Shown: positions 1 through 5,280 of the stretch, piece after piece
Layout of the letters: each line of letters starts with the position of its first letter
How positions within the stretch are numbered: position 1 is the stretch's first letter
DNA from: a bacterium
Lineage (GTDB): Bacteria > Desulfobacterota > DSWW01
Direction: 5' to 3'
DNA: 5,440 nt
NCBI GenBank assembly: GCA_030609865.1
Contig: JAUWSZ010000227.1
Location: 1 to 5,440, forward strand
Notes under the pieces: model-generated
Database searches by the model: none
The model's input: only the letters and a program-made list of their open reading frames with translations
Told to the model about the DNA's origin: nothing
Translations under genes and position numbers: made by a program

Positions 1-563
1 CGCCGATCGGGGGCAATCGGACCAAGACGTCTGATTTCCGGATCGTCGCGGCGACGAACAGGGACCTGATGGATCTCACGAGGAAGGGGATGATGCGGGA
101 GGATTTCTTCTACAGGATCCATATCATTCCCATCCACCTGCCTCCCCTGCGGAACCGCAAGGATGATATCCCCCTGTTCGTTGAACACTTCCTTAAAACC
201 TATGCGGGAGAAAGGGAGGTGCCTTCGATTCCGGGCCAGGTGATGGAATCCCTGGTCAACTACGACTGGCCGGGAAACGTGAGGGAGCTGCAGAACGCGA
301 TCCAGCGTTACGTCGCAGTGGGGCGCCTCGACATTCCAATTCCGTCGACGGTCGCACCGGATGCCCCCGGAGTGAGCCTTGATGCGGGGCGGCAGACGGG
401 AAGGAAGGAGTCCAGCCTCAAGCACGACATCGAGAACCTGGAAAGGGCCTCCCTAAGAGAGGCCCTGGAGCGTTACGGTGGCAACAAGAGCAGGGCCGCG
501 GAAGCCCTCGGTATCTCTCGTAAGACGTTGGCGAGAAAGCTAAAGCGTTACGGAGACCTGTAA
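1..563 (+). CDS. Sigma-54-dependent Fis-family transcriptional regulator, C-terminal part (5' end outside window)
   Basis: This is the last 186 residues of an NtrC-type enhancer-binding protein; the reading frame is open from position 3 and runs off the left edge. Visible in order are the sensor I strand of the AAA+ ATPase domain (RIVAATNRDL, about residues 14-23 of the visible part), the MMREDFFYRIHIIPIHLPPLR segment typical of this family, the sensor II motif YDWPGNVREL (87-96), a variable linker, and a C-terminal Fis-type helix-turn-helix (about 149-186, NKSRAAEALGISRKTLARKL). Such proteins bind upstream activating sequences and use ATP to open sigma-54 promoter complexes. The input domain, Walker A/B and GAFTGA loop lie outside the window, so the signal sensed is unknown. 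Its position just before three repeated sites and a -24/-12 promoter makes it the natural candidate activator of the synthase genes. The family call is very secure; the target is inferred. Confidence 0.95.
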   Translation, partial: PIGGNRTKTSDFRIVAATNRDLMDLTRKGMMREDFFYRIHIIPIHLPPLRNRKDDIPLFVEHFLKTYAGEREVPSIPGQVMESLVNYDWPGNVRELQNAIQRYVAVGRLDIPIPSTVAPDAPGVSLDAGRQTGRKESSLKHDIENLERASLREALERYGGNKSRAAEALGISRKTLARKLKRYGDL

Positions 564-611: not shown

Positions 612-630
612 TTGGGACACGATGACCCAG
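612..630. promoter_or_regulatory. Putative upstream activating site 1 (enhancer-binding protein operator)
   Basis: The site TTGGGACACGATGACCCAG is a near-palindrome (half-sites TTGGGACA and TGACCCA, 3-base spacer) and matches the site at 724-742 at 15 of 19 positions. It sits 49 bases after the regulator stop codon and about 200 bp before the -24/-12 promoter, a normal distance for an enhancer of a sigma-54 activator. The repeats are seen directly; binding by the adjacent regulator is inferred. Confidence 0.65.
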
Positions 631-640
631 GGACTTCCTC

Positions 641-661
641 TGGCGGACACTTATGACCCAA
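641..661. promoter_or_regulatory. Putative upstream activating site 2 (degenerate left half)
   Basis: The site has the halves GGACA (645-649) and TGACCCAA (654-661), matching the flanking sites, but the spacer is four bases instead of three and the outer left half is degraded (GGC in place of TTG). Its centre lies about 31 bp, close to three helical turns, from the centre of site 1, which would place both on the same DNA face. It is probably a weaker site used cooperatively. Confidence 0.5.
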
Positions 662-723
662 TCATCCTTCTTGCTTCTATCTATCTGTAGAAAATAGATT
701 TTTCAGCTAGAGACCGAATCATA

Positions 724-742
724 TTGGGACATTGTGACCCAA
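724..742. promoter_or_regulatory. Putative upstream activating site 3 (best palindrome)
   Basis: The site TTGGGACATTGTGACCCAA is the most symmetric of the three: seven of nine base pairs are mirrored around the central T. It lies about 86 bp upstream of the -24 element, with the IHF-like site between the two. This is the proximal site in a typical enhancer, bend, promoter arrangement. Confidence 0.65.
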
Positions 743-798
743 ATCAAGCGATCTTCACTTTTCGCCTTCGTCCCTCAAAATTGTATTTTCATTTATAA

Positions 799-811
799 AA
801 TCAGTTGTTTG
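799..811 (+). promoter_or_regulatory. Putative IHF binding site
   Basis: AATCAGTTGTTTG matches the IHF core consensus WATCAR-N4-TTR at every defined position. It is preceded by an AT-rich stretch (781-800), as is common for IHF sites. It lies between the proximal activator site and the sigma-54 promoter, where IHF bending brings the enhancer-bound activator to the polymerase. The consensus is short and AT-rich DNA raises chance matches, so position is as important to this call as the match. Confidence 0.5.
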
Positions 812-827
812 GAGGAACTTCAGGTCT

Positions 828-845
828 CTGGCATTATTCTTGCCA
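828..845 (+). promoter_or_regulatory. Sigma-54 (-24/-12) promoter of the synthase genes
   Basis: CTGGCATTATTCTTGCCA carries the invariant GG (830-831) and GC (842-843) exactly 10 bases apart, within TGGCA and TTGC elements that match the RpoN consensus well. The predicted start of transcription is near 855, giving a leader of about 59 bases to the small-subunit start. The sigma-54 activator gene and repeated upstream sites ahead of it strongly support the call. Confidence 0.82.
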
Positions 846-898: not shown

Positions 899-905
899 AA
901 GGAGG
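899..905 (+). promoter_or_regulatory. Ribosome binding site that fixes the small-subunit start
   Basis: AAGGAGG ends eight bases before the ATG at 914, which is good spacing. It is only two bases from the in-frame ATG at 908 and lies downstream of the in-frame ATGs at 734 and 863. This selects 914 as the start. Confidence 0.75.
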
Positions 906-913
906 GGATGCCC

Positions 914-1115: not shown

Positions 1116-3617
1116 ATGGCGGAACCTGTCCGACTCGAAAAGGAATTGAGCGAGCACGAGCAGAAGCAGGAGTGGTGGTGGGTTGCCGAGAAGAAGCGCT
1201 CCAAGCGTCTCGATTATCTGCGGAAGGCGGTCTGGAAAAAAGGCGCCTTGGGTGGCAACTACTCGCCGGGGATCAAGCTGGACCTCGAGATGCCCACGCT
1301 TTTCACAAATATGTGGAGGTTCTGGAAGTACGATTCGGTCATGCTCAGGCGGGCCAAGGCCTTCGCGCACGTACTGGACAACATTTCCATCTTCATCACC
1401 GACCAGGCCCAGATCGTGGGCTACATGGGCAGCCTTCCGCACACGATTGCCTGGCGTGTAGACGGTGCCAGCATGGTGAATGAAGAGGCCTACAATGAGC
1501 CCGGGATCCACACAGAGCCGGAAGAGGAATCCTTGAAGAAGGTGGCGGACCTGAACGAGTACTGGGCAGGCCAGACCGCGGTGGACAAGGTGGCCAGGCT
1601 GCTCGACCCGGAGGATGTGGTCAAGTTCATGAGCGGCGCCATTGGGTGGGGCGTGCCGACCTCGGCCTACGGGTACTCGAACAAGAACTATGAATACTTC
1701 ATGACCGGCAAGCGGGCCTTCGAGGACATCATCCAGGAGATAGACCGGGCAATCGAGAAGGCGGAGGACAAGACCATCGGGATCCCGGGACCGGACATCC
1801 TCTCCCTCTACGACAGGATCCAGAACTGGGAGGCCATGAAGATCGTCCTGGAGGCCGGCATTCGCTATGCAGAACGCTACGCAAGGCTGGCGCGGATCAT
1901 CGCCGAGAACTTCGAGAGCGACCCGAAGAGAAAAGAGGAACTCCTCCGGGTTGCCGAGACCTGCGAGCGGGTTCCGGCCAAGCCGCCGCGGACCTTGCAG
2001 GAATCCCTGCAATACGACTTCTTCGTTCAGATCCTCTCCCGCCTGGAGGCCCATGAGGGGGCATGGCCCTCACGGCCGGACTATTATCACGGACCTTACT
2101 ACGACAGGGACGTGAACATTGAGAAGAACATCACCCGGGAAGAGGCCCAGGATCTGGTCGGGGAGTTCATGATCCGCACCTATGAGGTGGGAGGCTTCGG
2201 CCCGCGCTGGGCGCGCGAGGGGCTCCAGGGGATTACGGGCACCTGGGTCTGGACCATCGGCGGGGTCAAGCCGGACGGCTCAGACGCCTGCAATGACATG
2301 ACCATCGCCCTCATGCAGGCGGCCAGGCTGGTGCGGGTAGCCAACCCCACGTTGAGTTTCCGGTGGCACCCCAAGGTCAAGGACGAGGTGATGCGGGAAT
2401 GCTTCGAGTGCATTCGTCAGGGGCTGGGCTATCCGAACATCCGGCACGATCCCATCATGGTGGCCAACGCCATGCACTGGCACGGCCACCCGATCGAGGA
2501 GGCCAGGCTCTGGGTGAACCAGGCCTGCATGTCGCCCTGTCCGCCCACCAAGCACGGGCAGCAGCCCATGCGGATGGCAGCGGCAACAGCCAACTGCGCC
2601 AAGATTATCGAATACGCCCTGTTCAACGGATACGATCAAGTGGTCAACATGCAGATGGGGCCCAAGACCGGAGATGCCCGCACCTTCACCGATTTCGAGC
2701 AGCTCTTCCAGGCATGGGTCAAGCAGATGGAATGGCTCTTCAGCACCCTGGTCCGGACGGTCAACCTCGGCCGGTACAAGGATCCGGAGTTCTACGGCAG
2801 GCCCTTCCTGTCCGCCATCTCGGAGCGGTCGGTGGAATCGGGCCTGGACATCTGCAGCCCGGAAGGGGAGCGAGGGAACTGCTGGATCACGGCCTTCACG
2901 TGGGTGGAGAACGCTGACGGCCTTGCAGCCGTCAAGAAGCTGGTCTTTGACGACAAGAAGTACGCGATGGACCAGCTCGTCACCGCCCTCGAGGCCAACT
3001 GGGAGGGCTACGAGGAGATGCGCCTCGATTTCGCGAGGAACGGGCCCAAATGGGGCAACGATGACGACTACGTGGATGATGTGATGCTCCGCTGCCTGCG
3101 CGAGTGCGCACGCTTCTCCCGGGTGCTCAAGTGTCCCAGCGGCAACAGCTGGCCGATCCTTCCTGAGAACGTGAGCGGCAACATCCACTATGCCAATATC
3201 GTCGGGGCCCTGCCGAACGGCCGCCGGTTGGGGGACGCCCTGTACGACGGAGGCATATCGCCCGGCCCCGGGCTGGACAAGAAGGGGCCCACGGCGGTTC
3301 TCAAGTCCTGCGGCAAGATCGATCACGTGACCGACGGCCGGGCCTTCCTCCTGAACCAGAGGCTTTCGCCCACACAGCTTGCCGGCGAATCAGGATATCA
3401 GCTCTGGAAGGCCTACATGCGAACCTGGGCCGACCTGGGCATCGACCACGTGCAGTTCAACGTGGTGTCCGATGAAACGCTTCGCTCCGCGCAGAGAGAC
3501 CCGGAGAGATACTCCGAGCTGATCGTTCGGGTGGCCGGATACAGCGCCCACTTCGTGGACATCAGCCGAAAGACCCAGGACAACATCATCCAGCGAACCG
3601 TCCAGGGGATCGGATAG
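1116..3617 (+). CDS. assA: Alkylsuccinate synthase-type glycyl radical enzyme, catalytic (alpha) subunit
   Basis: This encodes an 833-residue cytoplasmic glycyl radical enzyme that should add a hydrocarbon C-H across the double bond of fumarate, giving a substituted succinate. The pyruvate-formate-lyase-like barrel fills most of the protein. The active-site loop is NQACMSPC, with the thiyl Cys at 471. Arg486, 15 residues on, is the counterpart of the substrate-carboxylate arginine of BssA (Cys493/Arg508, from memory). The PNGRR...GPTA segment (700-727) leads to the C-terminal radical domain, RVAGYSAHF, with Gly808. The Cys-to-Gly distance is 337 residues, against 336 in BssA. The start at 1116 follows GGAGGAG at 1103-1109; the upstream in-frame ATG at 1032 would overlap the small-subunit gene and has no comparable site. 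The overall type is very secure. Alkane rather than aromatic substrate is inferred mainly from the adjacent AMP-forming ligase; BssA- or NmsA-like activity remains possible. The required radical-SAM activase is not in the window. Confidence 0.9.
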   Translation: MAEPVRLEKELSEHEQKQEWWWVAEKKRSKRLDYLRKAVWKKGALGGNYSPGIKLDLEMPTLFTNMWRFWKYDSVMLRRAKAFAHVLDNISIFITDQAQIVGYMGSLPHTIAWRVDGASMVNEEAYNEPGIHTEPEEESLKKVADLNEYWAGQTAVDKVARLLDPEDVVKFMSGAIGWGVPTSAYGYSNKNYEYFMTGKRAFEDIIQEIDRAIEKAEDKTIGIPGPDILSLYDRIQNWEAMKIVLEAGIRYAERYARLARIIAENFESDPKRKEELLRVAETCERVPAKPPRTLQESLQYDFFVQILSRLEAHEGAWPSRPDYYHGPYYDRDVNIEKNITREEAQDLVGEFMIRTYEVGGFGPRWAREGLQGITGTWVWTIGGVKPDGSDACNDMTIALMQAARLVRVANPTLSFRWHPKVKDEVMRECFECIRQGLGYPNIRHDPIMVANAMHWHGHPIEEARLWVNQACMSPCPPTKHGQQPMRMAAATANCAKIIEYALFNGYDQVVNMQMGPKTGDARTFTDFEQLFQAWVKQMEWLFSTLVRTVNLGRYKDPEFYGRPFLSAISERSVESGLDICSPEGERGNCWITAFTWVENADGLAAVKKLVFDDKKYAMDQLVTALEANWEGYEEMRLDFARNGPKWGNDDDYVDDVMLRCLRECARFSRVLKCPSGNSWPILPENVSGNIHYANIVGALPNGRRLGDALYDGGISPGPGLDKKGPTAVLKSCGKIDHVTDGRAFLLNQRLSPTQLAGESGYQLWKAYMRTWADLGIDHVQFNVVSDETLRSAQRDPERYSELIVRVAGYSAHFVDISRKTQDNIIQRTVQGIG

Positions 3618-3816: not shown

Positions 3817-5199
3817 ATGGAGTTCGAGACGATCCAAGGGATGTATCAGCACTGGTTCGACACCCGCGCAAGCCTGGCTGCCTATCACCTCAAGCGGGGC
3901 GGGTGCTGGGACCCTGTCACATGGCGTGCCTTCGAAGAGAAGGTGACCCACTTCGCACTCGGGTTGATGGCCCTCGGGATGGAATACCGGGATCCGGTGA
4001 CCGTTCTCAGCCTGACGCGCGAGGAATGGGATATCGCAGACAAGGCTACCCTGAGTGCAGGGGGGGTGTCGGTCGGTTGCTACCATTCGAACACCCCTGC
4101 CCAGATCCAGCACGTGGTCAACCATTCGGAGTCTCGATTCCTCATCGTGGAAAACAAGGAGCAATGGGAGAAGGTCCTCGAGATCCGCCCGGAGTTGCCT
4201 CTGGTCAAACGGTACATCATCATGGATCCCGCGGGCACCGAGGGGCAGGCCCTTCTCGCGTTTCAGGATGTCATCGAGTTGGGGCGGCAGGAACGGGAAG
4301 GCCTGGAGGAGGAGTACAGGCGGCGGTTTTCATCGGTGACCTCCGAGGACACGGCGATTATCTTCTATACATCCGGCACGACGGGCCCTCCGAAGGGTGC
4401 GATGCTCTCCCACGGAAACATCCTGGAGGCCTGTCGCAGCATGCGGGATCTCGAGGTCTTCTCGGCACAGGATGTGACGGTGATCTGGCTGCCCATGCCC
4501 CAAATCTACGGCCGCGTTGCGCAGATTGCAGGAGCCTATATTGGTACAAAGGGGTACTATGCCGAGAGTCCGGACAGGATCGTGGAGAACCTCAAGGAGA
4601 TTCGACCCACGATCTTCTACAGCGTGCCCCATATCTTCGAGAAGGTGTACTCCCGGATCCTGGGTGAGGTCGAGGCTGCCTCCCCTGTCAGGAAGAAATT
4701 TTTCCAGTGGGCCCTCGAGGTGGGCCTGGCCCGAAGTCGTCTCCTGCAGGAGGGCAAGGACCTGCCCGTTTCCCTCCGGGTGCGATACCGGCTCGCCGAT
4801 GCGCTCGTGTTCAAGAAGATCCGGGACATCTTTGGCGGGAGGATTCAGATCGTCGTATCCGGCGGCGCTCCGATTTCGAGGGAGATCCTCGAGTTTTTCC
4901 ACGCTGCAGGCATCCTTCCCCTGGAGATGTACGGGATCACCGAGGCGCTCCTGTGCACCATGAACCTCACAAACAGGTACCGGTTCGGTTCCATCGGGGT
5001 TGCGGCCCCGGGGGTCCGGATCCGGATCGCAGCGGGCGGAGAAATCCTCGCAAAGAGCAGTATGGTCTTCAAGGGATACCTGAAGGACGAGGAAAGGACC
5101 CGGGAGGCGTTCACCGAAGAGGGCTGGTTCGCCACCGGGGACGTGGGGAAAATCGATCCGGACGGGTTCGTCTGGATCACGGACCGCAAGAAAGAATAA
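3817..5199 (+). CDS. assK: AMP-forming acyl-CoA synthetase (AssK-like), truncated: C-terminal domain missing
   Basis: This encodes 460 residues of the ANL adenylate-forming superfamily, long-chain acyl-CoA synthetase branch. Motifs in order are the P-loop YTSGTTGPPKG (184-194), SGGAP (348-352), YGITE (372-376), GWFATGDVG (436-444) and the hinge DRKKE (456-460), after which the frame ends at once in TAA. Family members normally continue (DRKKELI...) for about another 140-160 residues, forming the mobile C-terminal domain with the catalytic A10 lysine, so this product should be unable to adenylate normally. In alkane degraders a ligase of this kind (AssK) is proposed to convert alkylsuccinate to its CoA thioester, which fits the position after assA. 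The start at 3817 follows GAGAGGA (3804-3810) at good spacing; an upstream ATG at 3742 in the same frame gives a non-homologous leader. Immediately after the stop the base composition drops, pointing to a rearrangement or an assembly join. The family is very secure; the exact substrate is inferred. Confidence 0.88.
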   Translation: MEFETIQGMYQHWFDTRASLAAYHLKRGGCWDPVTWRAFEEKVTHFALGLMALGMEYRDPVTVLSLTREEWDIADKATLSAGGVSVGCYHSNTPAQIQHVVNHSESRFLIVENKEQWEKVLEIRPELPLVKRYIIMDPAGTEGQALLAFQDVIELGRQEREGLEEEYRRRFSSVTSEDTAIIFYTSGTTGPPKGAMLSHGNILEACRSMRDLEVFSAQDVTVIWLPMPQIYGRVAQIAGAYIGTKGYYAESPDRIVENLKEIRPTIFYSVPHIFEKVYSRILGEVEAASPVRKKFFQWALEVGLARSRLLQEGKDLPVSLRVRYRLADALVFKKIRDIFGGRIQIVVSGGAPISREILEFFHAAGILPLEMYGITEALLCTMNLTNRYRFGSIGVAAPGVRIRIAAGGEILAKSSMVFKGYLKDEERTREAFTEEGWFATGDVGKIDPDGFVWITDRKKE

Positions 5200-5209
5200 A
5201 GAGGTCAGG

Positions 5210-5264
5210 GTTTAATTCCTGCAATCATCCGCTTGGGAGTTTGGGGACAGCCACCGAATTAAAC
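5210..5264. repeat. Short inverted-repeat element, likely mobile-element relic at a junction
   Basis: A perfect 9-bp inverted repeat, GTTTAATTC (5210-5218) and GAATTAAAC (5256-5264), encloses 37 bases that include TTGGGGACAGCCACC just inside the right arm. The motif GGGGACAGCCACC, or its complement, resembles sequences I recall flanking REP-associated/IS200-like Y1 transposase genes in Deltaproteobacteria; that is memory, not a search result. No transposase is encoded here. The element begins 10 bases after the premature end of the acyl-CoA synthetase gene and ends 16 bases before the next gene, marking the place where gene content and composition change. Confidence 0.5.
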
Positions 5265-5280
5265 TATCAATGGAGCAAGC

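Follow-up and report, generated by a model that had tools for sequence, protein, structure and literature searches.

The window, i.e., the whole stretch of 5,440 bases that was analysed, carries on its forward strand the end of a gene for a sigma-54 activator, followed by a spacer of 350 bases and by the genes of a glycyl radical enzyme. The AAA+ end, the AAA lid and the Fis-type helix-turn-helix (HTH) motif of the activator are present, and its N-terminus lies beyond the window edge. The genes and features are the following:

3..563, + strand: C-terminal 186 aa of a sigma-54 activator (Pfam Sigma54_activat, AAA_lid_14, HTH_8)
612..630: distal 19-bp dyad TTGGGACACGATGACCCAG, proposed activator site 1 (leave-one-out score 18.6)
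643..661: middle, weak dyad GCGGACACTTATGACCCAA, proposed activator site 2 (leave-one-out score 14.1)
724..742: proximal 19-bp dyad TTGGGACATTGTGACCCAA, proposed activator site 3 (leave-one-out score 20.5, p 0.003)
799..811, + strand: IHF-consensus site AATCAGTTGTTTG, centre at about -50, at a comparable position ahead of the -24 box in related loci
829..843, + strand: -24/-12 promoter TGGCATTATTCTTGC, GG-N10-GC, as read from the sequence and conserved in the related locus L001
855, + strand: predicted transcription start, placed 12 bases past the GC of the -12 box
899..907, + strand: putative ribosome-binding site AAGGAGGGG, as read from the sequence and also kept in L001
914..1087, + strand: small subunit of the BssC/TutF family, 57 aa (PF08201)
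1116..3617, + strand: glycyl radical enzyme large subunit of the AssA/MasD type, 833 aa (PF02901, PF01228)
3817..5199, + strand: acyl-CoA synthetase-like gene, 460 aa, apparently shortened (PF00501; C-terminus ITDRKKE)

The small subunit was taken to start at 914 and not at 908, since L001 lacks an ATG at the position corresponding to 908. The acyl-CoA synthetase-like gene possibly belongs to the same operon as the synthase genes. Behind this ORF an inverted repeat, GTTTAATTC...GAATTAAAC with GGGGACAGCCAC inside, was observed at 5210-5264, followed by a DUF423-like gene that scored below the Pfam cut-off (region 3817-5280), and the operon may have been cut at the acyl-CoA synthetase gene by a mobile repeat. 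The window was also scanned with Rfam and for tRNAs, which gave no matches.

At the synthase locus both the glycine radical domain (PF01228) and the gene of a small BssC/TutF-family subunit (PF08201) are present. Compared with glycyl radical enzymes of solved structure, the large subunit scored 1484 bits with MasD (9o8u_A) and 524 bits with TutD, and therefore the locus was classified as an alkylsuccinate synthase (ass) locus and not as bss; the addition of alkanes to fumarate is predicted from this sequence similarity. An assignment as benzylsuccinate synthase (Bss) was rejected as TutD/BssA is not closest. The sequence-only reading of the region had taken the bss operons and their two-component system TdiSR for comparison, which by these scores is not the nearest one.

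Regulatory elements in the window and in the closest locus

The promoter element at 829-843 is the sole match to TGGC-N7/8-TTGC on both strands of the 5440 bases and lies 265 bases past the stop codon of the activator gene; the chance of a -24/-12 element on the + strand of 564-907 was estimated at about 0.5% by first-order Markov resampling. The site at 799-811 matches exactly WATCARNNNNTTR, which we take to be the IHF consensus, and does not match the stricter form WATCAANNNNTTR; for the 90 bp ahead of the promoter the probability of an IHF match by chance was put at about 1.3%. The distal dyad is centred at about -234 from the predicted start and the proximal dyad at about -122; in the leave-one-out test the distal dyad was scored at -216 from the -24 element. 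The middle dyad, centred at about -203, has a strong right half and a poor left half with 3 of 9 dyad pairs. Among 2000 resampled sequences, one contained two similar dyads of this quality.

The closest locus, L001 from PL23a_bin.76, encodes an AssA that is 93% identical (among the best 80 of 279 matches). Its proximal dyad shares 18 of 19 bases with that of the window. Of the middle dyad the right half is kept and of the distal dyad mainly the right half, and both the IHF-like site, with one mismatch, and the -24/-12 element are conserved; the distances of these elements to the -24 box deviate by at most one base from those in the window. Two contig ends of this genome, L001:1-94 and L110:3072-3159, carry a tandem repeat of 29 bp with a similar GTCCCC/GGGGAC unit, and this repeat, lying between regulator and operon, probably broke the assembly. 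In PL23a_bin.76, contig C171 terminates in the 29-bp repeat of L001 just past a regulator gene 77% identical to the window fragment; this gene (L110:1096-3021) encodes a full-length PAS-PAS-AAA-Fis regulator without receiver domain, the identity extending over 186 aa of the activator fragment. We infer for the unjoined contigs of PL23a_bin.76 the same order of regulator, dyads, promoter and operon as in the window.

The sequence-only reading had described a sigma-54 control module directly behind the activator gene, composed of three near-palindromic sites, an exact IHF consensus and a correctly spaced -24/-12 promoter. Its coordinates are right, with a core module of 612-843, and both the position behind the activator gene, which ends before the dyads, and the GG-N10-GC spacing of the promoter were borne out. 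Two of the three sites are strong, near-perfect dyads (612-630 and 724-742) and the third (643-661) is weak, and the IHF site holds for the looser and not for the stricter consensus. Across the relatives the operator is looser than TTGGGACA-N3-TGACCCAA. Conservation in close homologues had been named as a test of the proposal, the one that can be run computationally, and it was passed, the proximal dyad, the IHF-like site and the -24/-12 element being found in L001.

The module in related ass loci

Altogether 79 assA loci from the best 80 of 279 matches were analysed. In the 415,725 bases upstream of these assA genes 36 high-scoring -24/-12 elements lie on the coding strand and 3 on the other strand. 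Among the 54 of these loci with at least 3 kb of upstream sequence, 29 carry such an element on the coding strand and 25 carry none, the latter including L009, the second ass locus of Desulfatibacillum alkenivorans. In the ass operons of relatives within this set the module usually precedes an opening mutase gene, e.g., in L032 with the order B12-binding mutase small subunit, mutase, MeaB, MmgE/PrpD, radical-SAM activase and assA; in the window, L001 and L002 the synthase genes follow the module directly. For 20 of the 79 loci a mutase-small-subunit ORF could be identified, and a near-perfect -24/-12 element lies at most 250 bp before its conserved motif in 18 of these 20 (the misses are L058 and L072).

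For the dyads and the IHF-like site a set of 22 loci was used, which was picked by promoter and not by dyad; outside its counts are L021 and L050, whose regulators belong to a different class, and eight more loci in which a promoter match lies on the coding strand. The seed of one dyad matrix was written with an earlier result in view, and the leave-one-out test was seeded with the consensus of the sequence-only reading. In this test the dyads were significant (p<0.05) in 17 of 22 loci and not significant in L002, L006, L012, L061 and L077. With the window and L001 left out, the same consensus gave 31 sites in 16 of 20 loci, compared to 2.6 sites (sd 1.7, maximum 9) in 200 base-composition shuffles. 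Matrix training yielded 40 sites on the real sequences and 10.4 on shuffled ones (maximum 20, 40 runs), and at a threshold of 9 there were 1.8 dyad sites per region versus 0.05 per control region (176 regions taken from the same loci), with a matrix trained on the tested loci. As these loci are kin to one another, all these statistics overstate independence. The majority of the dyads are located about 90-126 and 180-230 bases upstream of the -24 box. The position of the IHF-like site is even more fixed than that of the dyads in the 22 loci: at -32..-27 before the -24 box it was found in 4, 13 and 20 of 22 loci at 0, 1 and 2 mismatches, respectively, while other six-base windows reached at most 1, 3 and 7.

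The eight loci outside this set (L018, L036, L049, L059, L060, L068, L071 and L074) have a significant dyad at 0 of 12 promoters and an IHF-like site with at most two mismatches at 0 of 12, and the module is therefore common, not universal. Over all 30 loci dyads amount to 17 and IHF-like sites to 20, and the two tend to appear or fail together. At the promoters of L021 and L050 a significant dyad of this kind was found in 0 of 2. Ten relatives have a neighbouring PAS-type regulator gene in the same direction; here the promoter lies 186-225 bases past the stop codon of this gene, and the first dyad between about 13 bases before and 50 bases past this stop; in L012 the regulator gene is divergent. 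Thirteen regulator loci were inspected in addition, among which L123 and L124 repeat training loci, L132 is cut at a contig end and L128 was not read. The sole new positive was L130, which was outside the training set and in which a mutase gene is preceded by dyads and promoter (p 0.002); L129 has a promoter without dyads, and in L125-L127, L086-L088 and L131 the regulator is not followed by a module. The claim of a sigma-54 module in front of a fumarate-adding enzyme operon is thus supported, as many of the related loci conserve both the parts and their arrangement.

Similar arrangements were observed at further places. Behind a paralogous regulator gene, L155 and L170 carry dyads, an IHF site (near or exact) at -29 and a sigma-54 promoter. 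In L167 (genome G009) dyads and a sigma-54 promoter are located upstream of the regulator gene and in divergent orientation to it; the glycyl radical enzyme of L167 is by sequence closest to diol/glycerol dehydratases. L023 has a second module (L023:1061-1913) with dyad, IHF-like site with one mismatch and promoter, where a PEBP-family gene adjoins the ass operon. In L172 (G001:C192), whose contig carries another ass operon, a half-site, an IHF-like site and a promoter lie between a copy of the regulator gene and a MeaB gene.

The regulator and its distribution

Eight neighbouring regulators have the architecture PAS-PAS-AAA-Fis and none has a receiver domain; in these PAS-type regulators the Fis HTH helix reads SRKTLxRK or close. 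L021 and L050, which are Desulfomonile-type ass loci, encode a receiver-AAA-Fis regulator with a different HTH, and their dyads are TTCGG...CCGAA-like, located at +20 and +78 past the regulator stop codon, while the distance of the promoter is similar (+216/217). That protein and site have changed together, although in two loci only, supports the pairing of regulator and dyad. Relatives of the regulator in the PDB are ZraR, NifA, FleQ, NtrC1 and DmpR. A structure model of the L003 regulator (mean pLDDT 70, pTM 0.38) has strands and helices that fit two PAS folds, a helix linker and an AAA+ domain, but the 50 matches listed by a Foldseek search are AAA+ activators and give no clue to a ligand.

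In ten related genomes one RpoN each was found (10/10). At least one close regulator (>950 bits) is present in nine of ten genomes searched, the next paralogs scoring below 670 bits; the tenth, Desulfosarcina alkanivorans, has no close regulator and a best score of 551 bits. The IHF-alpha model TIGR00987, the sole IHF model searched, gave nothing above cut-off in ten genomes, and the bending protein may therefore be an HU/IHF relative. Across 395 genomes of the phylum, at least 12 have the regulator, at least 18 AssA and at least 10 both, these being lower bounds as the top 2-3 candidates per genome were scored; the two sets were matched up by hand. Without the five genomes that contributed to the models and without G007 (own locus set), regulator and AssA co-occur in 4 of 6 (P 8e-6). 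At the cut-offs used, two genomes have the regulator without AssA and eight have AssA without the regulator, which may be explained by incomplete genomes or by other regulators.

Proposed mechanism, alternative readings and known systems

Taken together, the region very probably represents the control module of an operon for anaerobic alkane activation, consisting of activator sites, an IHF- or HU-like bend and an RpoN promoter, and most likely an enhancer-binding protein activates RpoN polymerase at 829-843. The activator encoded directly upstream, which is probably of the PAS-PAS-AAA-Fis type like its closest full-length relative, would bind the conserved TGGG...CCCA dyads, and an IHF- or HU-like protein would bend the DNA at the fixed-place site 799-811. 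The activator would then contact RpoN polymerase at the conserved promoter element and drive promoter opening by ATP hydrolysis, with a start near 855; start and opening are proposed in this form because NtrC-type activators work in this way. Since its relatives have no receiver domain, the activator is probably a one-component sensor, and an alkane, an alkylsuccinate or a redox cue might be guessed as signal of the PAS domains.

It is possible, though on the doubtful side, that the module is part of a wider carbon regulon with ass as one among several targets. This would be compatible with control of the ass operon by the module rather than excluding it. In L155 and L170 modules stand before a Gpr1/Fun34/YaaH-family gene beside the paralogous regulator, in L023 before the PEBP-family gene, and in L167 dyads and promoter, with an IHF-like site at three mismatches, before the other glycyl radical enzyme gene; the Gpr1/Fun34/YaaH-family and glycyl radical enzyme cases suggest a regulon wider than ass. 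Genome-wide, the bare operator TGGGNCANNNTGNCCCA is not enriched, with 7 places, 3 of them on ass contigs, compared to 9 for the backward control, which speaks against the reading as an ass control module. The half-site at the right distance from a -24/-12 element gave 24 matches compared to 2 for the control, 3 of the 24 having no following ORF of at least 60 aa. However, 9 of these 24 matches in ten genomes precede ass-operon genes, as partly judged by eye, and regulator and AssA co-occur across genomes. A more far-reaching idea, which we regard as rather unlikely, is that throughout the phylum anaerobic alkane activation is under the control of a dedicated regulator family that has a cis code of its own. 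Genomes with several ass operons would then carry regulator copies with drifting operators, and every operon would respond to a particular alkane or alkylsuccinate. In PL23a_bin.76 there are five close copies of the regulator and, among the best 80 of 279 matches, at least four assA genes.

It is improbable that the promoter is sigma-54 dependent and the dyads bind another factor, e.g., a repressor, the neighbouring activator acting elsewhere. Strong dyads before the promoter without an upstream regulator gene found in the locus (L023, L027, L028, L032 and L045) would fit this, but the genomes of L023 and L032 have a close regulator elsewhere, the dyads lie at enhancer distance and adjoin the regulator stop codon in most co-directional loci, and they differ where the regulator is of the receiver type with another HTH (L021 and L050). 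Coincidental matches in an AT-rich spacer, for which it speaks that single short motifs such as the IHF site are weak evidence alone, are contradicted by the conserved parts and spacing across loci and can practically be dismissed.

The proposed control of the ass operon by the upstream activator through an RpoN promoter resembles known systems in several respects. Promoters of the NtrC/NifA/DmpR type combine an AAA+ activator with Fis HTH, upstream dyads, an IHF site and a -24/-12 element, which are all common to the module described here, whereas target operon, operator sequence and PAS-PAS sensor differ. In Geotalea daltonii the bss and hbs operons were reported to be sigma-54 controlled, based on 5' RACE and rpoN complementation, and, as far as the accessible part of that article extends, a fumarate-adding glycyl radical enzyme operon adjoins a sigma-54 Fis-family regulator gene and has a GG/GC promoter as in the window; in contrast, the enzymes are of the Bss type, the regulators lie upstream in opposite orientation, and no operator or IHF code is given in that part (PMC11497800). 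The earlier proposal of an RpoN-controlled hydrocarbon-activation operon is thus supported, but the idea has a precedent in this organism. TdiSR also controls a fumarate-adding enzyme operon, namely bss in Azoarcus and Magnetospirillum; according to the accessible text it differs in being a two-component system with TdiR placed in the LuxR family and with another proposed operator, ARGTGTYCGCACC (PMC7285207). In the same text a gene for a sigma-54 XylR-type regulator is described beside bss in Magnetospirillum 15-1, a relative of which adjoins bss in Geobacteraceae (PMC7285207). The ass clusters of Desulfoglaeba alkanexedens likewise contain assA with mutase, MmgE/PrpD and transport-type genes, and the words regulator, operon and sigma are absent from the main text of that article in its accessible form (PMC7180275). 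The accessible part of a further article holds nothing on ass control (PMC5606693). A literature search, with subscription journals mostly outside it, found no link between alkylsuccinate synthase and sigma-54, and the accessible portions of the literature naming both alkylsuccinate and NtrC make no link between them. Sigma-54 control of fumarate-adding enzymes is accordingly known for bss and hbs, and for ass operons no earlier report was found.

How the anaerobic attack on alkanes is switched on seems to be hardly studied. A similar switch in a number of related alkane-degrading bacteria makes the control of this pathway testable, and a readable operator, together with a bending site and a promoter at fixed spacing, may be used for the prediction of the regulon, for reporters of oil biodegradation and for direct tests of inducers.
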